NCBI RefSeq assembly: GCF_002160145.1
Contig: NZ_NFKA01000020.1
Location: 1 to 63,088, forward strand
Length of the DNA: 63,088 nt
Direction: 5' to 3'
Origin: Gemmiger sp. An194
Lineage (GTDB): Bacteria > Bacillota > Clostridia > Oscillospirales > Ruminococcaceae
Shown: positions 49,483 to 63,088 of the stretch, piece by piece
Position numbering within the stretch: position 1 is the first letter of the stretch
How the letters are laid out: the number at the start of each line of letters is the position of its first letter
Made by a program: the position numbers and the translations under genes
Notes under the pieces: generated by a model
Told to the model about the DNA's origin: nothing
Seen by the model: the letters and a program-made list of their open reading frames with translations, nothing else
Databases searched by the model: none

Positions 49483-52400
49483 ATGAAAGGAATCAAGGAA
49501 CAAGGAAAACGGATTGTGGCTGCCGTTCTTTGTGCCGGTGTATTCGCAACGTCTATGCCCATGGGCGTATTTGCGGATGCAGCTCAGGAAGTAGCTTCTT
49601 CAGTGGCTTCCTCGGTGGTTCAGAACGAGCAAACCGGTTCCGAGCCGGCAGATGCTGCGGTAGCCGACAGCACTGCGGCGGCCGATGCTTCTGCAGGCAG
49701 CACCGCAGCTGACAGTACGGCTGTTGATGATACCGCGGCAGTCAATGCTGCCGACGGTACTGCAGCGGGCGATTCTTCTGCTGACAGTACTGCGGCAGGC
49801 GACACCGCTGCCAGCAGCGCTGCGACAAGCGATGCGGTTGGCAGCACAGAGCAGGCTGACGGTGAAGAGGAAGCTGAGCCTGTTCAGCCGACAACCAGTT
49901 ACATCGCAACCTACCAGAACACCCTTCCGGAAGGTATCAGCTGGCCCGAAACCGTGACTGCTGAAACCTTCGGCACTCTCTACAGCACAGTGGAGGTGCA
50001 GGATGTGGACGGCAACACCTACTTTGTGGAGGTTGTGCCGGAAAATCTGGTGTACTTCATCGACTCGGCGGTTGCCAAACCCAGTGCGGACGGCGCGCTG
50101 GCCAGCACCGAGGCCTTCGACGCCGTGAAGACGCTGCTGGGCGACAAGCTGCTGAACGATCGCTATGACCAGCACACCAGCAAGGGAAGCTGGGGCCTGG
50201 TGAACAACTATGCTCAGGAAAAATCCTATGCGGATGTGGGCACAGCGGACAAGGATTATACCGGTATTTTGGGCCATGACAACGTGGAGGGTGCGTCCGT
50301 TTCCTACGATCTGACCCTGCCTGCCGGTACCTACACCCTGACCTCTCTGCATCAGGAGTGGTGGGGCAATGCCCGGCCCATGAAGATGACCGTGTACAAC
50401 GGTACCTCTGCGGATGCCGCGGTGCTGGCCGAGACCACTGCCACCATCCAGACCAAGGGCCAGAAGGAACAGGTCAACCTGACCTTCACCCTGACCGAGG
50501 AGACCAAGGTCCGGTACACCGTTTCTCAGAACGGCACCACCCAGGCACCGGCCATCAGCTGGCTGGCAGTCCGCTGTGATCTGGGTCAGGTCACTCTGGA
50601 TATGCCGGAAGCAGTTTATGCAGACGGCAGCAACCTGCCCACCACCGCCACCGCTGTTTACAACGGTGAAACGGTCAACAGTGCGGTGACCTGGTCCGGT
50701 CTGACGGGTGATTTCGGCAGTACTCCCCTGACTGCCACCCTGACCGAGTGCGGCAATGCACAGGTTACTGTTGATGCCATGGTCGTTCCCCAGGACCTGG
50801 TATACTTTGTGAATATGGCGCAGGCCGTGGATGACATGGCCGACTATCAGGCCATTGTGGCCGCCAATGCAGACACCCTGAAGAATACCGTGAACGACGG
50901 AGCTTACTCCGCCGAGACCGGCTTCGGTTATGTGGGTGCTGCCGGTACCATTCGCAATAATGTTGCGGATATCTACCAGAGCATGCGCTATGCGACGAAT
51001 AAAACCGATAGCATCAGCTATCAGTTCGACAACCTCCAGCCCGGCACCTACGATGTATACATTGGTATGCACGAGCCCTCCGGCTGGACGGGCAGCAACC
51101 CCAAGCGTGCTGCGGATGTGATCATTAACGATGCCACCCTGACCACGGGGTATTCTTACGCTCAGAACTGTGTGGGCACGGCAGACACCCTGAGCTACAC
51201 CGACATCACCGTGGATGCAAGCGGTGTGATGACCGTGGAGGTGGCTCCGAATGCCAACACTGACGGCGCGGTGCAGGTGAGCTTCATCATGATTGCTGCC
51301 AAGGAGACTGCACCTGTGGTTCCCGATGTGGAGCTGAGTGAGCCCCTGGAAGAGACCGACGGCCTGACCTATGCAGATGGTGCGGTGGTGTCGGAGATGG
51401 AGCCTTTCGGCACTGTGTTCCAGATGGACCAGACCTGGAACAACACCGCAAAGTACCATGCGACCATCAATGACACGAAGGCCAAGTTTGACACCACTGG
51501 TTTCACCATCCTGCTGGATGTGGAGACCGAACAGACTGCCACCGGTGATCTGCTGACACGTACCGCGGCACTGAATATCGGCAATGCGGACAATGCAGTG
51601 CGGATTTCCACCTATGCGGGCGAGTTGCGTTACGGTGCACTGCCTAGCGGCGTGAGTGCAAACAGTGTGCCTCTGACCGGTTTCAACCAGGGCGAGTGGA
51701 ACGCCATTGCGCTGGTGTATGAGGAAAAAGATGGCGGCAATGGTTCCGTTGTCGTCTATGTGAACGGTGTGAAGGCTGCTGAAGTGGCCGACATCGGCTT
51801 CAAGCTGAGCGAAATGGGTGATGTGCAGGCAATGCTGGGCCGGTCCTTTAATACCAGCTACCTGCAGCAGGGCACCTACGACAACATTGTTTACTCCTCC
51901 GGGGTGATGGGTGCAAGTCAGGCCATGAAACTGACCGCCCAGCACAAGAAGGAGAAGAATCAGGCCTCCCTGGATGCGCTGAAAGAAGCTCTGGAACAGG
52001 CCAAAGACAAGGTTAACTCCGGCATGACCAGTGACCGACTGGAAGCCGCGATTGAAGCGGGTCAGGAGATTCTGGATAAGGCGCAGACCACTGTTCTGGC
52101 CCAGAAGGAAATCGACGCGGCCACCGATGAATTGATTGCGGCAATGGAGGAGGTAACTCCCACAACCATCACCCTGGACGGCGCCGATGTGGACGCCGCA
52201 GCGGAGAACGTAAACGGCCTGACCTGGAAGGGCTGGGGCATGCTGAACGGCAACAGCACTAGCAACCTGCTGCTGGACTACAAGGCCGAGCATCCCGACA
52301 AATACTGGGAGATGATGGAGTACCTGTTCGGCGGCAAGCATCCGCTGTTCACCCACATCAAGATGGAAATGGGTAACGACGGCAACAACTCCACCGGTGC

Positions 52401-55400
52401 GGAAGCCTGCACCATGCGTTGGGCGAATGACAAGGCGGATGCCTCCCGTTCTCCCGGTTTCGTAATGGCGGCGGACGCGAAGGCCGTGAACCCGGATGTG
52501 AAAATCAGCGTGCTGCGCTGGATGTACCCCGACTGGATCGCGGACACCGGCTTCACCGACTGGGATTCCAACAACAAGAGCGGCTGGGATGAGATGTACA
52601 CCTGGTACCGCGAGACCATCTTCGATGCCTACGAGAAGTACGGCTATGTGGTGGACTTCGTGAACCCGGACCGGAACGAGACCTCCAACCCCAACGAGGG
52701 CCTGATCAAGTACTTCGCGGATCGGATCGAGAATGAGACCGAGTTCCCCAACTACTTTACCGAGGAAGCGAAGGAAGCTTACCGGAACATCCGCATCATC
52801 GCTTCCGACGAGAACAAGACTCTGAACATTGTGCCCAGCATGCTGGCAGATAAAGAGCTGTTCAATGATGTTGACATCATCGGCTTCCATTACCGCACCA
52901 GCGCCACCGAGGATTATGTGAAGATGGCTGAGGAGTGGGGCAAGGAAGTCTGGTACAGCGAAGGCTGCGCCACCTTCGGTTACACCGAACTGCAGGAGAA
53001 CAAGAACAGCGAGTATGGCTACGAGAGCATTGGTGGCTACCAGAGCCCGCTGGCCCTGGTGGACAGCATGACCACCGCCTTCATGTCCTCCCGCCGGACT
53101 CACTACATGTTCCAGCCTGCGCTGGGCTCCTTCTACGAGGGCATCCAGTATGCTCATAAGGAGCTGGCCAGTGCCCGTGACCCCTGGAGCGGCTACATCC
53201 ATTACGATCCCGCGCTCCAGATGATCGCGCACTTCTCCCGTTTTGCCGATACCGGCTGGGAGAATGAAGACAACACCAAGGGCATCTGGCGGCTGATCGT
53301 AAACGCCAGCCAGGAATCCTTTGCAGGCAGTGACAACGAGCATGCAACCGCCGGCATCAACGGCAATGCAAGCTACCTGACCATGGCAGATCCGGACAAG
53401 AAGAATTTCTCTACCGTATTTGTCAACAATACCCAGAACGCAAAGACCTTTGCCATCAGCACCGAGAACATGGAGCTGGCAGAAGATCAGAAGCTGTGCA
53501 CCTGGGTAACCGAGACCGACAGCTACATGAAGCAGGGCGAGACCCTGGAAAAGAATGCTGACGGCAGCTGGATCATCACCATCCCCGCCTACAGCGTGGT
53601 GACCGCCACCACCCTGGACGAGTACAGCGAGGAAGCCCTGAAGATGCCTGCGGAAGGCATCAACACCGAGGACCGTCTGGTGCTGGACACCGACGCCACC
53701 GGTAAGACTCTGGATTCCTCCGACGAGTACCTGTACGCCGATAACTTTGAGTACGCCGAGGAAGCTGACATGGGCGTAAGCAAGGACGGCGTGAAGGATG
53801 CTTACACTGTGGACTACCTGACTGCACGCGGCAACGAGCCCCGCTACATGCTGGACTCCCACGGCGCGTGGGTCGTGGAGGACGGCAAGCTGGCTCAGGT
53901 CCTGGATCAGGAAGTGGGTCAGTGGAACGGCGGCGAACCCATGACCATCGTGGGCGACTTCCGCTGGATGAACTACTCCACCAGCATTGATGTGGAGATT
54001 CCCGGTGCAGATGCAAACGTATGGGCCGGCGTAGGCGTGCGCAGCCAGACCGGTATGAACTGGAACCAGGACGGCTACACCCTGCGGGTGTACGGCGACG
54101 GTGACTGGGAGTTCTACCGCGGCGGCACCAAGCTGTCCAACGGCAAGGTAGAGGCCGATGCCGAGGGCAAGTACGCTGTACAGATCCATGCCAACGGCAA
54201 CATGATCGTTGCCTGCCTGGACGGCCAGGTGGTTTACAGCTACACCGACTCCAATCCCATGGATGCGGGCCGCATCAAGCTGAGCAGCCCCTGGAGCGTG
54301 GTCTACTTCGATAACCTGAAGGTGACCACCATCGAGGGCACCATCCCCTACGCCACCAGCATGGTGGACGGCCAGGATGACAGCGTGACCTACGCCGATA
54401 AGAGCGTGTGGGATATCACCAAGCCCGGCGGCGGCAGCGCCGACAACTGGTACCGCACCATGAGCGTGACCAGCACTGCGGGCGCTGAATTCACCTTCGA
54501 CTTCCCTGTGGCCGGCACCGGCTTTGCCATTACCGGCGGCAACGACGGCAGCGCCGTTCTGGATGTCTATGTGGACGGCAACCTGGTTGCTGAAAACGCA
54601 CAGACTTCCTCCAGCGGCACCCGTTTTGAGACCTACACTCTGACCGGCTTGACCAACGACAAGCACTCTGTGAAGGTTGTTGTGAAGTCCGGCACTCTGC
54701 AGATCGACGCGCTCTACACCCTGGGTGAGGAGCTGCCGATCACCACCGATTCGCTGGTCTCCATCGAGACCGAGCTGCCCGCCACCCTTGTGGCCGAAGC
54801 AGGCCAGCCTGTTTCCGAGGATGCTCTGCCCACCACCGTTTCCGTTCTCACCTCCAAGGGCGAGACCAAGGAGATGGAGATCCTGTGGGAAGGCAACACC
54901 GCAGAAAACCTGGCTGATCCCTTCACCAGCGCCACCATCACCGGCGTGGTACAGGGTGGTACCAATGTGCTGGGTCTGCCCCTGACCGCTACTGTAGTGG
55001 TGGAAGTGGTTCCCCAGAATCTGGTCTACTTCATCGACACCGTTTGCAACCTGAATGATGCAAACGCTCCCGAGACTACCGAGTATTTCACTCTGTTGAA
55101 AGACGCACTGGGCGATCAGCTGCTGAACGATAAGTTCGACCAGTTCAAGACCAGTGACAATACCTGGGGTCTGGTGGACACCGATGTTGGCACCAAGAGT
55201 TGGTCCAGCACCGAAAACAAGGAGGATACCGGTATCTACGGCCATAACAATACGGCCGGCGAGACCATCTCCTACGACTTCTATCTGAAAGCCGGTACGT
55301 ATACCATCACCTCGGCACACCGCGAGTGGTGGGGCATGACCCGGCCCATGGATGCCACCGTATCCTATGGCGACACCGTTCTGGATGCGGGCAGCATCTC

Positions 55401-58400
55401 TCTGAGCAGCAGCAACTGGCTGGATTACAACGAATTCACCTTTACGCTGGAAGAAGCCCAGACGGTTCGATACACTCTGACCTGCACCGGCTCTCAGGCT
55501 CCTGTTATCAGCTGGCTGGCGGTGAACGGTGTTCCCGGTGAGGAGCTGAAAGCAGAGCTGCAGCAGACCATTGCAGACATCGAGGCCAAGCTGGCCGCCG
55601 ATGAGGCCGCCGGCGTGAACTACGCCGAGGTTCCCCTGACCGCAAGTCAGGTAACCGGTTCCGGCTCCGTGATCCCCAAGGACAGCCTGCAGGATCTGAA
55701 CGCAGCGCTGGATGCCGCTAAGGCTCTGCTGGAAAATGAGGCTGCAACCGACAAGCAGATTCAGGAAGCCGCCGCAGAAATCGAGACCATCTACGAGAAT
55801 CTGCGCGTTCTGCCTGAGGAATACACCAGCATTCCCGGCACCGACGGCGATGTGATCTATGCCGATACCGGTCTGCCCATGCAGGCACACGGCGGCAGCG
55901 CCACCGTAATGGTGGAGGGCACCGGCGAGGGCTGCGTGAACGTGGACCTGGACGGCGACGGTGAAATCACCGAAGGCAAGACTGTATACCTGTGGTACGG
56001 CGAGGACAAGACTAACAGCACCCGCCCTGTGGACGGTGTCCGCTGCTATGTTTCCACCGACCTGTACAACTGGACCGACCGCGGCACTGTTCTGTATCTG
56101 CAGAACACCATCCTGCCCATTGAAGAGTCCGACGAAGCTGCCGTGACCTCCTCCGTTGGCGCGGATGGCGAGGGCACCACTCAGAGCTACAACGCCATGC
56201 AGCTGTCTCAGACCAATTACGAGACGCTGAAGGCCTGGGGCATGATGGAAACTGCTCCCGAAGGCGTTGCACAGGAGGACTTTGACGAAGTCAAGCGCTT
56301 CCTGCGCGCCTATGTGACCGAGTTCGACAAGGCGCCCACCAGCGCCGAGGACACCACCTGGACGGCCAAGAGCTATGATGAGACCCAGTTCGAGACCTCC
56401 AGCTTCCTGTACCCGGACAGCCAGACCGAAGGCACTCAGACCACCTCTGCACTGCAGCTGGCGTTTGAGGGTCTGTACGGTGATTACTGCATCACCGAGC
56501 GTCCGAAGATGATCTACAACGAGTCCACCGGCAAGTTCGTGATCGTCTTCCATGCGGATGGCCCCCTGTACAACAACGAGACCCTGAACCAGTGGGTCGC
56601 CAATGACTGCGAAGGCCAGATGAGCGCAAGCCGCTACAGCCGCGCCATGGTTGGCTTCGCGGAGAGCGAAACTCCCTTTGGTCCCTTCAAGCTGGTCAAT
56701 ATGACCCGCATGAACTACGACACCAGCCTGAACGCGGATCGTTTGGGCGAAGCCCGTGACATGACCGTGTTCGTGGACAAGGGCACCGACAGCAACGGCG
56801 ACGGTGTGGATGATGCTTACGTCATCTACTCCAGCGAGATGAATGCACGCCTGTACATCTCTCTGCTGGATGAGAACTACACCGACACCATCACCGAGGG
56901 CGCCGAAGGTCAGAATGAGACCTGGGCCGCCCGCATCGTGACCGAGACCAATCGGGAAGCTCCGGCCATGTTCAAGTACGATGGCTGGTACTACCTGATC
57001 ACCTCCGGCACCGACGGCTGGAACAGCACCGCCCATACCTACTACCGCAGTCAGAACCTGCTTTCCGGCTGGGAAGCCATGGGCAACCCCGCCCTGAATG
57101 ATACCGGCAAGTGCTTCAATACTCAGGTAACCTATGTGCTGCCCATTGACGCAGAGGCCGGCAAGTTCATCTACATGGGCGACCGCTGGAACGGCAACAA
57201 TCTGACCGACAGCCGCACCGTATGGCTGCCCCTGCAGGTCAACCCCGACACCGATACCATTGCGATCCTTGGCGAAAGCAACTGGACGCTGGATCGGCTG
57301 AATGAGCTGGCTCCCGTGACCGTTGTCACCGAGCTGCCCGAGACCGTTTACACCGACGGCAGCAACCTGCCCGACACCCTGGAAGTAATCTGGAACGGCG
57401 AGACCGTTGAGTCCGCTGTGGAATGGAGCTTCGACAATCTGGGCGATGCCACCGTCAAGGGAACACTGCTGGATTGCGATGACGCGGTGGTGACCGTTTC
57501 TGCTTTTGTTGTACCCACCAATGTGGTCTACTTTGCCAATATGGCCAATGAACCCATGAGCGAGGACTACAACAAAATCGTTGCAGAAAACGCCGACACC
57601 ATTCTGAACACTGTGAATGATGGCGCTTACTCTGCTGAGACCGGTTTCGGTTACATCGGAGCGGCCGGCAGCATTCGAGCCAACACCACAGACATGTATC
57701 AGAGCCTGCGTTATGCCGCCAATAAGACCGACAGCATTGAGTATCAGTTTGATCTGGAGGCAGGCGAGTACGAAGTATACATCGGCATGTTTGATCCCTC
57801 CGGTTGGGCGACTTGGAGCCCCAAGCGTTCTGCAGATATTGTGCTGAACGGAACCACCGTGACCACTGGCTATTCCTATTACAGCAACGCCTTTGATGTG
57901 GCCGATACGCTGCATTACACCGGCGTGGAAGTGGGCGAGGATGGCGTGCTGACCGTTGAGGTTGCTCCCAATGCGTCCACTGACAGCGCTGTGCAGGTAA
58001 GCTTCATTGTGGTTAGCAAAGTGGAGAAGGCTGTGGAGCCCACTCCGACTCCCACAGCAACCCCCGAACCCACTGAGTCTCCCGAGCCCACTGCGACTCC
58101 TGAGCCCAGCGCGGAACCCACTGCAACCCCTGAACCGACTGCTGTACCCACCGCAACTCCTGCACCCACCGAGGCGCCGGAGGTAGGAGATATTGCACTG
58201 AATGTTCAGGAGAGCATCACCACTGTTCCGGAAGGCTTGAAGGATACCGCGTTCAACACGGTAAACAAGATCGTTGAGCAGCTGTACAAAGTGGCGGCTG
58301 AGGCTGTGCCCGGTCTGACCACCGAGAACAGCAAGGTTTACGATGTAACTCTGATGACCTTCAATGACAACGGCGAGTGGGTACCGGTGACTGCCGACAA

Positions 58401-58809
58401 CTTCCCGAAGGATGGCATCGTTGTGGAATTGCCTTACCCTGAGGGAACCAGTGCATCGACTCATGACTTTGTGGTGACCCATATGTTTACCGTGGCTACG
58501 GGCGAACATATGCCCGGCGATGTGGAACTGCCTCAGGTTTATGAGGCAGAGACTGGCATCCGCTTTGTGGTTCACAGCTTGTCTCCCATTGGTCTGAGCT
58601 GGAAAACTACGGATACGGAGACTTCCACTCCGGAAACCACCCCGCAGCCCTCTGCACCGGCAGCAACTCCGGTACCGGTCATCACCACCAGCCCGCAGAC
58701 CGGCGACTCCGGTATGCTGATGATTGCGGCTGTGGCTGTGATTGCTGCCGCGGCTCTGGCCGTGGTGGAGATCACCCGCCGTACACGGCGCGGAAAAGAA
58801 GAAAAATGA
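49483..58809 (+). CDS. Giant wall-anchored multidomain glycoside hydrolase (GH59 plus GH43_24-like)
   Basis: The 3,108-residue protein starts at ATG after AAAAGGAG. In order: signal peptide (1-31); Ala/Ser/Thr/Asp-rich linker (34-130); module A1 with LVYFIDS (about 189-366); Ig-like and module B1 with LVYFVNM (368-607); LamG-like (620-812); FIVAR-like helices (820-893); GH59 (895-1390) with likely acid/base Glu1066 in NPDRNET and nucleophile Glu1160 in WYSEGCATF; two beta-sandwich modules (1410-1750); Ig-like and A2 (1753-2018); helical linker; GH43 subfamily-24-like domain (2116-2610) with WYGEDK and ERPKMIYN; Ig-like and B2 (2610-2851); TPEPT linker; C-terminal domain; SPQTGDSG, membrane helix and RRTRRGKEEK. 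GH59 and GH43_24 both act on galactosides, so a galactan or arabinogalactan substrate is inferred. Confidence 0.9.
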   Translation: MKGIKEQGKRIVAAVLCAGVFATSMPMGVFADAAQEVASSVASSVVQNEQTGSEPADAAVADSTAAADASAGSTAADSTAVDDTAAVNAADGTAAGDSSADSTAAGDTAASSAATSDAVGSTEQADGEEEAEPVQPTTSYIATYQNTLPEGISWPETVTAETFGTLYSTVEVQDVDGNTYFVEVVPENLVYFIDSAVAKPSADGALASTEAFDAVKTLLGDKLLNDRYDQHTSKGSWGLVNNYAQEKSYADVGTADKDYTGILGHDNVEGASVSYDLTLPAGTYTLTSLHQEWWGNARPMKMTVYNGTSADAAVLAETTATIQTKGQKEQVNLTFTLTEETKVRYTVSQNGTTQAPAISWLAVRCDLGQVTLDMPEAVYADGSNLPTTATAVYNGETVNSAVTWSGLTGDFGSTPLTATLTECGNAQVTVDAMVVPQDLVYFVNMAQAVDDMADYQAIVAANADTLKNTVNDGAYSAETGFGYVGAAGTIRNNVADIYQSMRYATNKTDSISYQFDNLQPGTYDVYIGMHEPSGWTGSNPKRAADVIINDATLTTGYSYAQNCVGTADTLSYTDITVDASGVMTVEVAPNANTDGAVQVSFIMIAAKETAPVVPDVELSEPLEETDGLTYADGAVVSEMEPFGTVFQMDQTWNNTAKYHATINDTKAKFDTTGFTILLDVETEQTATGDLLTRTAALNIGNADNAVRISTYAGELRYGALPSGVSANSVPLTGFNQGEWNAIALVYEEKDGGNGSVVVYVNGVKAAEVADIGFKLSEMGDVQAMLGRSFNTSYLQQGTYDNIVYSSGVMGASQAMKLTAQHKKEKNQASLDALKEALEQAKDKVNSGMTSDRLEAAIEAGQEILDKAQTTVLAQKEIDAATDELIAAMEEVTPTTITLDGADVDAAAENVNGLTWKGWGMLNGNSTSNLLLDYKAEHPDKYWEMMEYLFGGKHPLFTHIKMEMGNDGNNSTGAEACTMRWANDKADASRSPGFVMAADAKAVNPDVKISVLRWMYPDWIADTGFTDWDSNNKSGWDEMYTWYRETIFDAYEKYGYVVDFVNPDRNETSNPNEGLIKYFADRIENETEFPNYFTEEAKEAYRNIRIIASDENKTLNIVPSMLADKELFNDVDIIGFHYRTSATEDYVKMAEEWGKEVWYSEGCATFGYTELQENKNSEYGYESIGGYQSPLALVDSMTTAFMSSRRTHYMFQPALGSFYEGIQYAHKELASARDPWSGYIHYDPALQMIAHFSRFADTGWENEDNTKGIWRLIVNASQESFAGSDNEHATAGINGNASYLTMADPDKKNFSTVFVNNTQNAKTFAISTENMELAEDQKLCTWVTETDSYMKQGETLEKNADGSWIITIPAYSVVTATTLDEYSEEALKMPAEGINTEDRLVLDTDATGKTLDSSDEYLYADNFEYAEEADMGVSKDGVKDAYTVDYLTARGNEPRYMLDSHGAWVVEDGKLAQVLDQEVGQWNGGEPMTIVGDFRWMNYSTSIDVEIPGADANVWAGVGVRSQTGMNWNQDGYTLRVYGDGDWEFYRGGTKLSNGKVEADAEGKYAVQIHANGNMIVACLDGQVVYSYTDSNPMDAGRIKLSSPWSVVYFDNLKVTTIEGTIPYATSMVDGQDDSVTYADKSVWDITKPGGGSADNWYRTMSVTSTAGAEFTFDFPVAGTGFAITGGNDGSAVLDVYVDGNLVAENAQTSSSGTRFETYTLTGLTNDKHSVKVVVKSGTLQIDALYTLGEELPITTDSLVSIETELPATLVAEAGQPVSEDALPTTVSVLTSKGETKEMEILWEGNTAENLADPFTSATITGVVQGGTNVLGLPLTATVVVEVVPQNLVYFIDTVCNLNDANAPETTEYFTLLKDALGDQLLNDKFDQFKTSDNTWGLVDTDVGTKSWSSTENKEDTGIYGHNNTAGETISYDFYLKAGTYTITSAHREWWGMTRPMDATVSYGDTVLDAGSISLSSSNWLDYNEFTFTLEEAQTVRYTLTCTGSQAPVISWLAVNGVPGEELKAELQQTIADIEAKLAADEAAGVNYAEVPLTASQVTGSGSVIPKDSLQDLNAALDAAKALLENEAATDKQIQEAAAEIETIYENLRVLPEEYTSIPGTDGDVIYADTGLPMQAHGGSATVMVEGTGEGCVNVDLDGDGEITEGKTVYLWYGEDKTNSTRPVDGVRCYVSTDLYNWTDRGTVLYLQNTILPIEESDEAAVTSSVGADGEGTTQSYNAMQLSQTNYETLKAWGMMETAPEGVAQEDFDEVKRFLRAYVTEFDKAPTSAEDTTWTAKSYDETQFETSSFLYPDSQTEGTQTTSALQLAFEGLYGDYCITERPKMIYNESTGKFVIVFHADGPLYNNETLNQWVANDCEGQMSASRYSRAMVGFAESETPFGPFKLVNMTRMNYDTSLNADRLGEARDMTVFVDKGTDSNGDGVDDAYVIYSSEMNARLYISLLDENYTDTITEGAEGQNETWAARIVTETNREAPAMFKYDGWYYLITSGTDGWNSTAHTYYRSQNLLSGWEAMGNPALNDTGKCFNTQVTYVLPIDAEAGKFIYMGDRWNGNNLTDSRTVWLPLQVNPDTDTIAILGESNWTLDRLNELAPVTVVTELPETVYTDGSNLPDTLEVIWNGETVESAVEWSFDNLGDATVKGTLLDCDDAVVTVSAFVVPTNVVYFANMANEPMSEDYNKIVAENADTILNTVNDGAYSAETGFGYIGAAGSIRANTTDMYQSLRYAANKTDSIEYQFDLEAGEYEVYIGMFDPSGWATWSPKRSADIVLNGTTVTTGYSYYSNAFDVADTLHYTGVEVGEDGVLTVEVAPNASTDSAVQVSFIVVSKVEKAVEPTPTPTATPEPTESPEPTATPEPSAEPTATPEPTAVPTATPAPTEAPEVGDIALNVQESITTVPEGLKDTAFNTVNKIVEQLYKVAAEAVPGLTTENSKVYDVTLMTFNDNGEWVPVTADNFPKDGIVVELPYPEGTSASTHDFVVTHMFTVATGEHMPGDVELPQVYEAETGIRFVVHSLSPIGLSWKTTDTETSTPETTPQPSAPAATPVPVITTSPQTGDSGMLMIAAVAVIAAAALAVVEITRRTRRGKEEK

Positions 58810-58852
58810 TCGTTGATCATTGATCTTTCCGCAATACCTAAGCAATAAAACG

Positions 58853-58902
58853 AAACCCGCATGGGTCTCCGGCATTTTGCCGGAACCCATGCGGGTTTTT
58901 AT
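58853..58902 (+). terminator. Terminator after the first giant glycosidase
   Basis: AAACCCGCATGGGT pairs with ACCCATGCGGGTTT, with an inner CCGGCA/TGCCGG stem, and is followed by TTTTTATTT. Confidence 0.92.
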
Positions 58903-59279: not shown

Positions 59280-59282
59280 ATG

Positions 59283-62200
59283 ATGCAGAAAATTCTGCGC
59301 AGAGCAGTGGCAGCTTTTCTGGCGGCCTGCATGATGATGAATATTGCAGTGCCGGCCTATGCCGCTTCTTCCACAGAATCGGCAAGCAGTCAGGCGGTCT
59401 CGCAGGAAACCGCAGATCTGCTGCTGGAGCAGGCTGCTGCCCAGGCGGAACCCACCGAGGCACCCGCGGAGGACGCAACAGGGGCTTCGCAGGCGGAGCC
59501 CACTGAGGCTCCCGAAGCGGAAGCAACTGAGGCCCCGCAGGCAGAGGCCACAGAGGTGCCGCAGGCGGAAGCAACCGAGGCTCCTCAGGTGGAATCCACC
59601 GAAACACCCGCTGCACCCGAAACAGCGGTGCAGCAGGAGCCCGTGGTGGAGGAGAAACTGGTGGCCAGCTATGACATGACCACCAACGGCACCGCACTGG
59701 TGGATGTCAGCGGCAATGGCAACGATGCCACCCTGAGCGGTACCACCGATGCCAGCTTTGCCGGCGGCAACTGGCACATGAACAAGGACAGCTTTGCTAC
59801 CTTGCCCGCCGGACTGATCACCGGTGAGGAATTCACCGTGCAGTTCACTGCCACCACCACTGCCAAGGCGGCACACTGGATGTTCGCTCTGGGTGACGGC
59901 TTCGGCAACTGGAACGACAAAAATGTGGGCAACTATATCTTCGTGAACCCGGCTCCCACCGAACGGAATGGCAATATCCTTTCCGCCATCAAGGTAGGTA
60001 CCGGCAGTGACTGGAAGGAAGTCCGTGTGCCGGACAGCGCTTCCGCGATCGGCCTGGCCAATCAGCAGGGTTATGCCACCATTACCATGGTGGGCGAGGG
60101 CAACGAACTGCGCCTTTACCTGAACGGCCAGCAGGTTTCCTCTGTGACCCATGAGTTCAAGATCCAGGATGTGATCCCTGAGGACAAGACCGGCTATATC
60201 GGTAAGTCCCTGTACACCTCTGATCCGCTGATGACCGCAAATCTGGCGGATTTCAAGATTTGGAACTATGCCCTCAGCACTGAGGAGCTGGCTGCCGAGC
60301 AGCCCTCCGCCGAGGTGCTGGCCGAGTATTTTGCCCGTGATATCAAGGCGGCAATGCTGGGCGGCAACTCCGGTCTGGAAGCAGTGACCGAAAATCTGAG
60401 CCTTCCTTCCACTGTAAACGGCGTTGCCGTGGCCTGGACCTCTGATAATACCGATGTTCTGGCCAACGACGGCACCATCCATCCCGTTGTGGGCAAGGAT
60501 ACCACCGTGAAGCTGACTGCTTCTTACAGCCTGAATGGCGAAGCCAAGACCCAGGAGTTCACCGTGGTTGTGAAGGGCCTGGATGTGGGCAAGACCCTTC
60601 AGGAGGCTGCCGACAGCCTGACCATCCCCAATGCGGACGATGTGCGCGGCAATTTCACCCTGCCCGAGAGCGTGGGTGAGGTTTCCGTAAAGTGGGCTAC
60701 CGACCATGAGGAGATCGTGACCGTGGAAAGCCAGAAGGCTTCCGTGGATGGTTACGATGAGATTCCCGCCGGTGTGGTGACCCGTCCCGCAGAGGACACC
60801 AAGGTAACCATGACCGCCACTTTGTCTCTGGCTGACCAGCAGACTACCAAGCAGATCGAGCTGACCGTAAAGGCTGCTCCCGAGGAGCTGACCGATGCGG
60901 ACTTCACCGACTACTTCTTCGCTTACTTTGCAGGTGAAGGCTATTCCGACGGCGAGCAAATCTACTTTGCTTCCAGCCAGGACGGCCTGAACTGGGAGGA
61001 TCTGAACGACAACGAGCCTGTGCTGTACTCCACACTGGGCGAGCAGGGCGTTCGCGATCCCTTCATCATCCGCTCTGCGGAGGGCGACCGCTTCTATCTG
61101 ATCGCCACCGACCTGAAGATCAACGGCAACAACGACTGGAGCGGTGCACAGAGCAACGGCAGCCAGTCCCTGATGATCTGGGAGTCCAACGATCTGGTGA
61201 ACTGGTCCGAGCAGCGTATGGTGGATGTAAGCTCTGAATACGATGCCGGCTGCACCTGGGCCCCCGAGGCCACCTACGATCCGATCACCGGCGAATATCT
61301 GGTGTACTGGGCATCCCGCGCCGAGCGTACCACCGGCGACAAGATCCATCGGATCTATGTGGTAAAGACCCGTGACTTCTATACCTTCACTGAGCCTGAG
61401 GTGTGGATCGAGTATGACCAGTCCAGCATCGATACCACCGTCATTCAGGGTGAGGACGGCAAGTACTACCGCTTCACCAAGAACGAGGGCACTAGCACCA
61501 ACGAGCTGGGCGCGCTGACCAAGACCGTATTCCTGGAGACCGCCGACACCCTGCTGGGTGAGTGGACTCAGATCAAATCGGATTCCCTGAACGGCGAGCA
61601 GTGGGTGGAAGGTCCCACCATCTTCCGTCTGAATGCGGATGACCGGGAAAACGGCCAATACTGCCTGCTGCTGGATGATTTCGGCGGCATCGGTTATTAT
61701 CCTGTTGTGACCGACGATCTGGCCAGCGGTGTATTCACCGCCCCGGATACCGAATTCAAAATGCCCAGCCGCGCCCGTCATGGTACGCCGCTGCGCATCA
61801 CCGCTGAGGAGTACGAGACAATCCAGGCAAAGTGGGGCGATGCTGTCATGCCGGACCCCGGCGTGGACCCCGATCCTGAGCTGGCCAAGCTGGCGCTGGA
61901 AGAGACCGGTGGTCTGACCTACGCCAACGGCGCCATCACCTATCTGCGCTCTGGCTGTGATACTCTGTTCCAGATCAATGTGGACTGGAACAATACCAAC
62001 AGCTACCATGCCACCATCAATGACGCACAGGCCAAGTTCGGTACCACCGCGTTCACTGTTCTGATGGATGTGAAGACTGAAGACAGTGCCTCCGGCGATC
62101 TGCTGGCCCGTGGTGCCGCACTGAATATCGGCAACGATAAATACGCCCTGCGTATCGGTACTTACGAGAACGGCAATCTGCGCTTCGGCAGCTACAGCGG

Positions 62201-63088
62201 CGGTGTAAGCACCAGCAGCGCTGAGCTGAACGGCTTTGAAAAGGGCGAGTGGAACGCCATTGCTCTGACCTATGAAGAAAAGGCTGGCGGCAATGGTTCC
62301 GTCGTCGTCTATGTGAACGGTGTGAAGGCTGCTGAAGTGGCCGACATCGGCTTCAAGCTGAGCACCATGACCGACATTCAGGCTATGCTGGGCCGCATGG
62401 TGGGCACCAGCTACCTGCAGAAGGGCCTGTACGACAGCATTGTGGTCGTGGATGAGGTTCTGGATGCGGAGAAGCTCCAGACCGAGACCCTGGCCCGCAA
62501 GTATGCCAAGGAAACCCTGCCCATGATCAATACCGCCAATCTGGAAGCCAACCTGGAAAAGGCTGAGGCTCTGGTGGAGGCGGGTCTGACCAGCGATCGT
62601 CTGGAAGCCGCGATGACTGCTGCCAAGGACGTTCTGGCCAACGAAAACAAGACCCAGACCATGGTGGATGAGGCCGACAGCGAGCTGATTGCTGCCATCG
62701 GCGAAGTGCAGCCCACCGAGATCCTGCTGGACGGCGCCGATGTGGACGCCGCAGCGGAAAACGTGAACGGCCTGACCTGGAAGGGCTGGGGCATGCTGAA
62801 CGGCAACAGCACCAGCAACCTGCTGCTGGACTACAAGGCCGAGCATCCCGACAAATACTGGGAGATGATGGAGTACCTGTTCGGCGGCGAACATCCGCTG
62901 TTCACCCACATCAAGATGGAAATGGGTAACGACGGTAACAACTCCACCGGCGCGGAAGCCTGCACCATGCGTTGGGCGAATGACAAGGCGGATGCCTCCC
63001 GTTCTCCCGGCTTCGTAATGGCGGCGGACGCGAAGGCCGTGAACCCGGATGTGAAAATCAGCGTGCTGCGCTGGATGTACCCCGACTG
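59283..63088 (+). CDS. Second giant secreted glycoside hydrolase (GH43_34-like plus GH59), cut by window end
   Basis: At least 1,268 residues are present, open to the right edge; ATG at 59280 is an equal start, both after GGGGG. In order: signal peptide (about 1-28, ending VPAYA); EATEAPQ-type repeats (53-120); LamG-like (126-335); two atrophied Ig-like domains (350-533); GH43 domain (537-853) with GVRDPFIIRS, CTWAPEATYDP, VIQGEDGKYYRF and VEGPTIF supplying the Asp/Glu triad, resembling subfamily 34; LamG-like (873-1060); FIVAR-like (1067-1147); and the start of GH59, whose catalytic residues lie beyond the window. It follows the first giant gene and probably shares its substrate class. Confidence 0.9.
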   Translation, partial: MQKILRRAVAAFLAACMMMNIAVPAYAASSTESASSQAVSQETADLLLEQAAAQAEPTEAPAEDATGASQAEPTEAPEAEATEAPQAEATEVPQAEATEAPQVESTETPAAPETAVQQEPVVEEKLVASYDMTTNGTALVDVSGNGNDATLSGTTDASFAGGNWHMNKDSFATLPAGLITGEEFTVQFTATTTAKAAHWMFALGDGFGNWNDKNVGNYIFVNPAPTERNGNILSAIKVGTGSDWKEVRVPDSASAIGLANQQGYATITMVGEGNELRLYLNGQQVSSVTHEFKIQDVIPEDKTGYIGKSLYTSDPLMTANLADFKIWNYALSTEELAAEQPSAEVLAEYFARDIKAAMLGGNSGLEAVTENLSLPSTVNGVAVAWTSDNTDVLANDGTIHPVVGKDTTVKLTASYSLNGEAKTQEFTVVVKGLDVGKTLQEAADSLTIPNADDVRGNFTLPESVGEVSVKWATDHEEIVTVESQKASVDGYDEIPAGVVTRPAEDTKVTMTATLSLADQQTTKQIELTVKAAPEELTDADFTDYFFAYFAGEGYSDGEQIYFASSQDGLNWEDLNDNEPVLYSTLGEQGVRDPFIIRSAEGDRFYLIATDLKINGNNDWSGAQSNGSQSLMIWESNDLVNWSEQRMVDVSSEYDAGCTWAPEATYDPITGEYLVYWASRAERTTGDKIHRIYVVKTRDFYTFTEPEVWIEYDQSSIDTTVIQGEDGKYYRFTKNEGTSTNELGALTKTVFLETADTLLGEWTQIKSDSLNGEQWVEGPTIFRLNADDRENGQYCLLLDDFGGIGYYPVVTDDLASGVFTAPDTEFKMPSRARHGTPLRITAEEYETIQAKWGDAVMPDPGVDPDPELAKLALEETGGLTYANGAITYLRSGCDTLFQINVDWNNTNSYHATINDAQAKFGTTAFTVLMDVKTEDSASGDLLARGAALNIGNDKYALRIGTYENGNLRFGSYSGGVSTSSAELNGFEKGEWNAIALTYEEKAGGNGSVVVYVNGVKAAEVADIGFKLSTMTDIQAMLGRMVGTSYLQKGLYDSIVVVDEVLDAEKLQTETLARKYAKETLPMINTANLEANLEKAEALVEAGLTSDRLEAAMTAAKDVLANENKTQTMVDEADSELIAAIGEVQPTEILLDGADVDAAAENVNGLTWKGWGMLNGNSTSNLLLDYKAEHPDKYWEMMEYLFGGEHPLFTHIKMEMGNDGNNSTGAEACTMRWANDKADASRSPGFVMAADAKAVNPDVKISVLRWMYPD

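Follow-up and report, generated by a model that had tools for sequence, protein, structure and literature searches.

A predicted surface-anchored protein of Gemmiger sp. An194 uniting GH59 and GH43_24-type domains, with type II arabinogalactan as its proposed substrate

Results

The window, meaning the whole stretch of 63,088 nucleotides analyzed here, carries at its high end two large genes with glycoside hydrolase domains. Gene 1 (P0001; 49483..58809, + strand) encodes, as judged from its reading frame and Pfam matches, a GH59-GH43_24 protein of 3,108 amino acids that is predicted to be secreted and surface-anchored. Its ATG start codon lies at 49483 behind a ribosome-binding-type site, AAAAGGAG, and its stop codon occupies 58807-58809, in agreement with the sequence-only reading, which had described a single polypeptide of about 3,100 residues. 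An antisense open reading frame of 3,096 codons (49600-58890, − strand) was rejected as a gene. We regard it as a codon-usage artefact, which stays open because TTA, CTA and TCA codons are nearly absent from gene 1 (no TTA or CTA among 193 Leu codons; one TCA among 206 Ser codons); codon usage in nine further genes that we checked resembled that of gene 1.

Hydropathy places a putative signal peptide at about residues 1-30 (49483..49572, +), with a hydrophobic core at residues 11-29. At the opposite end, inspection of the sequence and its hydropathy revealed a sorting-type signal (58690..58806, +), in which the motif SPQTG at residue 3070 precedes the hydrophobic stretch and positively charged tail expected for LPXTG-type anchoring. 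These features support the surface location implied by the wall anchor proposed earlier, although the motif deviates from strict LPXTG and the sole anchor model matching gene 1, NF033846, scored 13.9 bits against a cut-off of 23.5. Relatives with the same fusion (see below) carry SSQTG (L035), LPQTG (L037) or IPQTS (L086) at this position, and the L039 protein ends in a hydrophobic stretch with Lys only.

The GH59 part comprises a predicted (beta/alpha)8 catalytic barrel at residues 895-1253 (52165..53241, +), to which PF02057 matches over residues 915-1253 (238 bits, cut-off 27, E 1.3e-70). In a comparison covering the families present in the VIA-align rows, its predicted fold fits mouse galactocerebrosidase (GALC) across 601 residues, through the barrel, the beta-sandwich and the lectin domain, with 22% identity in the structural alignment. 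The predicted acid/base residue, E1066 (52678..52680, +), aligns within N1065-E1066 with the WNE of mouse GALC, and the predicted nucleophile, E1160 (52960..52962, +), aligns with its SSE; N1065-E1066 and E1160 are invariant in 51/51 rows of a profile of relatives, to which mouse GALC was aligned. Behind them lie a GALC-type lectin domain at residues 1460-1614 (53860..54324, +), where PF06439 passes its cut-off, PF21708 falls just below and the lectin part of GALC aligns, and a GH59-associated C-terminal beta module at residues 1622-1745 (54346..54717, +) that is seen behind GH59 in relatives. The family match, the catalytic Glu pair and the GALC-like predicted fold all assign this part to GH59, and the two catalytic glutamates named in the earlier reading are borne out. 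It is quite improbable that the GH59 enzymes of this clade are not beta-galactosidases and cut a related sugar such as alpha-L-arabinopyranose: identity to GALC is 22% only and sequence cannot give specificity, whereas the Glu pair of GALC and its layout of barrel, sandwich and lectin are all kept.

Elsewhere, two GH59 homologues of a single genome, G011 (L033, 9620-12085; L034, 6-2408), seemingly lack the acid/base Glu and are possible inactive paralogues. Four genomes of the window's family (L029-L032) encode GH59 proteins of 789-1,051 amino acids with no evident signal peptide, which apparently form a separate, intracellular branch.

The second catalytic part, at residues 2111-2620 (55813..57342, +), is a GH43_24-type exo-beta-1,3-galactanase domain as judged from Pfam, PDB sequence matches and relatives. 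PF04616 matches residues 2391-2537 with 36.8 bits (cut-off 32.2, E 3.5e-9). Eight PDB sequences match the domain at E<=1e-5: four bear the name galactan 1,3-beta-galactosidase or exo-beta-1,3-galactanase (7bys, 7byv, 7byx and 5flw), and the others are named 'beta-glucanase' (6eug, 6euf), 'ricin B lectin' (3vsf) and 'glycosyl hydrolase' (3nqh). The best two matches bear no exo-beta-1,3-galactanase name; we take 3vsf, presumably Ct1,3Gal43A, as well as 6eug and 6euf to be GH43_24 members too. In the PDB alignment, the predicted catalytic acid E2492 (56956..56958, +), presumably E208 in Pc1,3Gal43A numbering, aligns with a Glu for which chains 7byv and 7byx have Gln or Ala, and Q2548 (57124..57126, +) aligns with the Pc1,3Gal43A Gln that we take to be the base, in place of the usual Asp. 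Both residues are invariant in 8 rows. An insertion of about 100-130 residues within the domain (56098..56487, +) is kept in 8 sequences. An AlphaFold model built from the 8-row alignment was poor (pLDDT 45) and was set aside. If the best two matches are taken as GH43_24 members, the domain appears closest, among GH43, to the characterised exo-beta-1,3-galactanases. The Pfam match above cut-off, the names of four of the eight PDB sequences and the aligned E2492 and Q2548 uphold the GH43_24-like domain of the earlier reading and, together with the GH59 evidence, its union with GH59 in one protein.

The remainder of gene 1 consists of accessory modules. The proposed 'at least ten' roughly holds once internal repeats are included, although only two accessory Pfam families, 3keto-disac_hyd and Big_4, exceed their cut-offs; GH59_C, FIVAR and a LamG-like stretch fall below theirs. 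Module A (first copy at residues 182-300, 50026..50382, +; second copy at 55000..55353, +) and module B (first copy at residues 396-625, 50668..51357, +; second copy at 57400..58035, +) are internal repeats with about 65% DNA identity. A Laminin-G-like module at about residues 640-810 (51400..51912, +) has a PF14099 match below cut-off over 643-807, and Pfam classes its homologue in gene 2 as Laminin_G_3. Part of a Big_4 Ig-like domain lies at 54823..54921 (+; PF07532 above cut-off), and FIVAR-like helices lie at 55672..55803 (+; PF07554 below cut-off). Sequence matches show that a C-terminal module (58138..58617, +) is common to two more large proteins of the same genome, those of L027 (7743-14054, −) and L028 (8822-13462, −), the latter of which also has LamG and a metallophosphoesterase domain.

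Gene 2 (59280..63088, +) lies directly downstream and is cut by the contig end; its product is predicted to be secreted and comprises, according to Pfam and curated models, LamG, two aBig_2 domains, GH43, LamG and the start of GH59, which the sequence-only reading had overlooked. Its GH43 domain (60900..61889, +) matches NF052546, the model of the GH43_22 enzyme BAD_1527, with 209 bits, which lies under the 500-bit cut-off and marks it as a relative only; a PDB search with this domain returned no GH43 relative and one weak match from another family. The first third of a second GH59 is recognizable at 62721..63086 (+) by homology to the first copy, and the last 360 bases of the contig show about 98% DNA identity to gene 1. 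A further contig, C3, breaks off at the high end of L026 within a gene of the gene 2 type; it holds the tail of that gene, the first 60 bases of which are identical to gene 1. Since both the window from 62720 to 63088 and the end of C3 lie inside near-identical GH59 repeats, the assembly would hide the middle of the second GH59; we infer that gene 2 and the C3 tail belong to a single gene, with its near-identical middle part collapsed during assembly (the C13-C3 join). The join gains support from Lachnospiraceae bacterium GAM79 (L039/L208) and L036, where related importer and GH88 genes lie beside the GH59 gene.

Beside the C3 tail are genes for a histidine kinase, a LacZ-type GH2 (NF052611 over cut-off), a DUF2264 protein, a GH88, two permeases, a solute-binding protein and a YesM/YesN-type pair and, further along, a heparinase II/III-like protein. 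For the DUF2264 protein, the matches are 8oi4 (7e-33) and two glucuronate dehydratases, 9o4u and 9nwf, of the former GH154 family. The GH88 protein resembles unsaturated glucuronyl hydrolases (1e-112), and its closest solved relatives are unsaturated glucuronyl/chondroitin disaccharide hydrolases. For the heparinase-like protein, 8r75 and 8r6z match at 5e-74; both structures come from a study of PL33 whose accessible text names glycosaminoglycans and gellan, not arabinogalactan, as substrates (PMC11848413). C3 also carries a GH29 alpha-L-fucosidase gene (L213 4195-5574, +; C3 74195-75574), at a distance of about 13 kb from the gene for the solute-binding protein. In GAM79, two other genes and about 2.7 kb or more separate the fusion gene from genes for rhamnulokinase and rhamnulose-1-phosphate aldolase, a position that is no more than suggestive of rhamnose handling.

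Relatives were collected by a scan of genome contigs, in which the best 80 of 380 matches correspond to 79 loci. Weak PF02057 matches (E ~1e-4 to 1e-21, mostly in frames of 450-550 amino acids) were left out of all GH59 counts; we rejected them as GH59 and took them for distant relatives, perhaps GH30. Among the best 80 matches, GH59 and GH43_24 occur in one polypeptide at L035, L037, L039, L086 and, after extension, L036/L202 (3,321 amino acids). Counting the window protein this makes six fusions, and GH59 comes first in all six. When the fusion label is placed on a GH59 tree of 32 rows, four changes are required, at least three of them forced, and 22 of 500 shuffles were as low; the forced changes suggest that the fusion was gained or lost repeatedly. 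Distances between GH59 domains and between GH43_24 domains correlate weakly among the six fusions (r 0.30). In the genomes of L038 and L048, the insertion-type GH43_24 resides in a separate protein, apparently on the same contig as GH59. Two GH43 domains are joined to GH59 at L059 (4,220 amino acids), a GH43 gene adjoins the GH59 gene at L047, and in the window's genus GH59 occurs in one of seven genomes. The family and the GALC-like fold would suit cleavage of galactolipids or cerebrosides, the activity of mammalian GALC, yet the fusion to GH43_24 and the polysaccharide-type gene context make such a role highly improbable.

GH59 and GH43_24 also co-occur when they are encoded separately. A GH43_24 match of at least 150 bits was present in 19 of the 25 gut-clade genomes with GH59, or in 14 of 20 when the five fusions are subtracted. 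The class-wide figure was 5 of 393 genomes, including the genome under study and leaving out GH43_24 (A2) matches under 150 bits. In a 250-genome sample from one family, GH59 was found in 18 genomes, GH43_24 in 15 and both in 8 (odds ratio 25.7, p 6e-7, ignoring kinship); 10 of the 18 GH59 genomes were without GH43_24, and 7 of the 15 GH43_24 genomes without GH59. GH53 and GH10 served as controls for general plant degraders. GH53 occurred in 51 of the 250 genomes, in 8 of them with GH59 (odds ratio 3.5, p 0.015), and GH10 in 38, in 4 of them with GH59 (odds ratio 1.7, p 0.28), again ignoring kinship. The weak GH53 association, together with a xyl-doc cluster of R. cellulolyticum that includes GH59 according to the relevant passage of PMC6556953, would fit a GH59 acting on other plant galactosides, such as type I galactan, pectin side chains, xyloglucan or galactose-bearing xylan. 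We consider this unlikely, as the GH43_24 association lies far above that of GH53 or GH10, and that of GH53 falls to an odds ratio of 2.1 (p 0.17) when only frames longer than 1,000 amino acids are compared.

Strong matches to the importer, GH88, dehydratase, regulator or lyase genes of C3 lie beside GH59 at 6 of 26 gut-clade loci (L036, L038, L039, L049, L051 and L054); the other 20 show no strong neighbour matches, and many loci end early at contig ends. An importer together with a lyase-like gene accompanies GH59 at 3 of 33 actinomycete loci, many of which likewise end at contig ends. These three (L090, L097 and L110) are Streptomyces loci in which, as in some gut loci, genes for an ABC importer and a heparinase II/III-like protein lie close to GH59. 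Both counts leave out a 143-bit solute-binding-protein match at L048, weak permease matches at L062 and L075, and L103, which has an importer without a lyase-like gene. Outside the gut clade, Lachnospiraceae-type loci (L060, L063-L066, L099 and L106) have a shorter GH59 of about 1,000-1,130 amino acids, with a large GH2 relative encoded immediately behind it; these GH2 relatives (about 280-296 bits) were not counted.

The neighbourhood also bears on whether the target could be a host glycan with glucuronic acid (GlcA) and galactose. One example is the linkage region of proteoglycans, GlcA-Gal-Gal-Xyl, whose breakdown could likewise employ an exo-beta-1,3-galactanase together with a beta-galactosidase. 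The characterised relatives of the GH88, PL33 and dehydratase proteins act largely on glycosaminoglycans, and this keeps the alternative standing: the closest solved relatives of GH88 are those named above, and the accessible sections of PMC11848413 and PMC12269599 describe PL33 and dehydratase relatives, respectively, acting on glycosaminoglycans or chondroitin fragments. We nevertheless consider a host glycan rather unlikely, given that GH43 domains like BAD_1527, of arabinofuranosidase type, occur together with GH59 in gene 2 and at L047 and L059, that the three Streptomyces loci show a similar arrangement, and that BT3677, the founder of the former-GH154 dehydratase family, is described in arabinogalactan breakdown in the available parts of PMC12269599 and PMC12943147.

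Discussion

We propose, with a probability of roughly two in three, that the gene 1 product is anchored to the cell surface and trims type II arabinogalactan (arabinogalactan protein, AGP) there with its two enzymes. The substrate was already suggested, next to a galactose-rich host glycan, by the sequence-only reading; it is now backed by the recurrence of the GH59-GH43_24 fusion, by a co-occurrence that exceeds the controls and by an adjoining glucuronate/galactoside pathway, although the assignment of the substrate itself is still indirect. At the family level the parts of an AGP locus are present: exo-beta-1,3-galactanase, arabinofuranosidase, galactosidase, GlcA handling and an importer, with the GH43 of gene 2 below its model cut-off and the C13-C3 join presumed. 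Gene 1 is a new, conserved combination of known families.

According to this proposal, the GH43_24 domain would proceed from the end of the backbone along beta-1,3-galactan, freeing side chains. GH59 is likely a side-chain beta-galactosidase, perhaps beta-1,6-specific, and would take beta-linked galactose, most likely beta-1,6-linked, off these chains. In the gene 2 protein, GH43 may strip off arabinofuranose and the second GH59 galactose. The freed oligosaccharides, capped with GlcA, would enter the cell through the ABC importer. Inside, a PL33-type lyase or the glucuronate dehydratase would act on them first, followed by GH88 and finally by the LacZ-type GH2. PL33-type lyases cut at C4 of GlcA, and the one on C3 might remove rhamnose from GlcA. 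The limit tetrasaccharide of gum arabic is given in the accessible text of PMC8939339 as Rha-alpha-1,4-GlcA-beta-1,6-Gal-beta-1,6-Gal. As to gene 2, BAD_1527 is reported in the available part of PMC11264647 to have no action on arabinogalactan, on which the GH43_22 enzymes BlArafA and BlArafE act.

PF14587 had no match in any of the eight genomes with an insertion-type GH43_24, which suggests that GH59 may take the beta-1,6-galactan role. More tentatively, the secreted GH59 enzymes of the gut clade could be AGP side-chain beta-1,6-galactosidases or galactanases that replace GH30-type enzymes within an undescribed Gram-positive pathway leading from imported Rha-GlcA-capped oligosaccharides through a PL33-type lyase or dehydratase to GH88; we hold this broader scheme to be possible and somewhat doubtful.

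The earlier suggestion of a new use of GH59 fits the literature, with the reservation that it depends on the proposed arabinogalactan target. In the open literature searched, with CAZy and subscription papers outside its scope, we found no report of GH59 acting on arabinogalactan; the GH59 passages of PMC7889515, PMC8143103, PMC11739564, PMC6556953 and PMC4765114, and the accessible text of PMC6637243, describe no such action. GH59 is known mainly from the human Krabbe-disease enzyme, and its bacterial members are poorly understood. That GH59 is repeatedly fused to an enzyme with a single known specificity, within a coherent neighbourhood, opens a direct test of the role of bacterial GH59. If correct, our proposal would show how Gram-positive Clostridia digest AGP such as gum arabic, where the earlier work we have seen concerns Bacteroides and bifidobacteria, and could provide a new substrate setting for PL33-type lyases and former GH154 dehydratases.

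Compared with known systems, gene 1 shares with mouse and human GALC the family, the catalytic Glu pair and the succession of barrel, beta-sandwich and lectin over the 601 aligned residues, but it is a bacterial, putatively surface-anchored, modular protein with a galactanase and an extra C-terminal module. Its GH43_24 domain resembles Pc1,3Gal43A (7bys) and 5flw and shares their catalytic Glu and Gln, and differs from characterised GH43_24 enzymes in its insertion and in its position behind GH59. In Bifidobacterium longum, Bl1,3Gal is a GH43_24 exo-beta-1,3-galactanase (accessible text of PMC7889515). The surface-anchored B. longum enzymes BlArafE (GH43_22/GH43_34), Bl1,3Gal and GAfase act jointly on AGP, as proposed here for gene 1, and BlArafE likewise is multidomain with LamG and Ig-like modules; unlike gene 1, these gum-arabic enzymes are separate proteins, with no GH59 among them in the accessible text (PMC8939339). 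The chondroitin pathway of B. caccae PUL25 combines, like C3, a uronate dehydratase ('GH154'), a GH88 and a lyase, but its lyase is PL35 and that of C3 is PL33-like, and C3 in turn has GH59/GH43 surface enzymes, a LacZ-type GH2 and an ABC importer (available part of PMC12269599). Finally, the GH59/CBM6/BIG4/BIG3/3SLH protein of Paenibacillus sp. JDR-2 is a surface-attached modular GH59 protein like gene 1, from which it differs, in the passage of PMC4765114 that describes it, in that no GH43 is given and the annotation is beta-galactosidase only.
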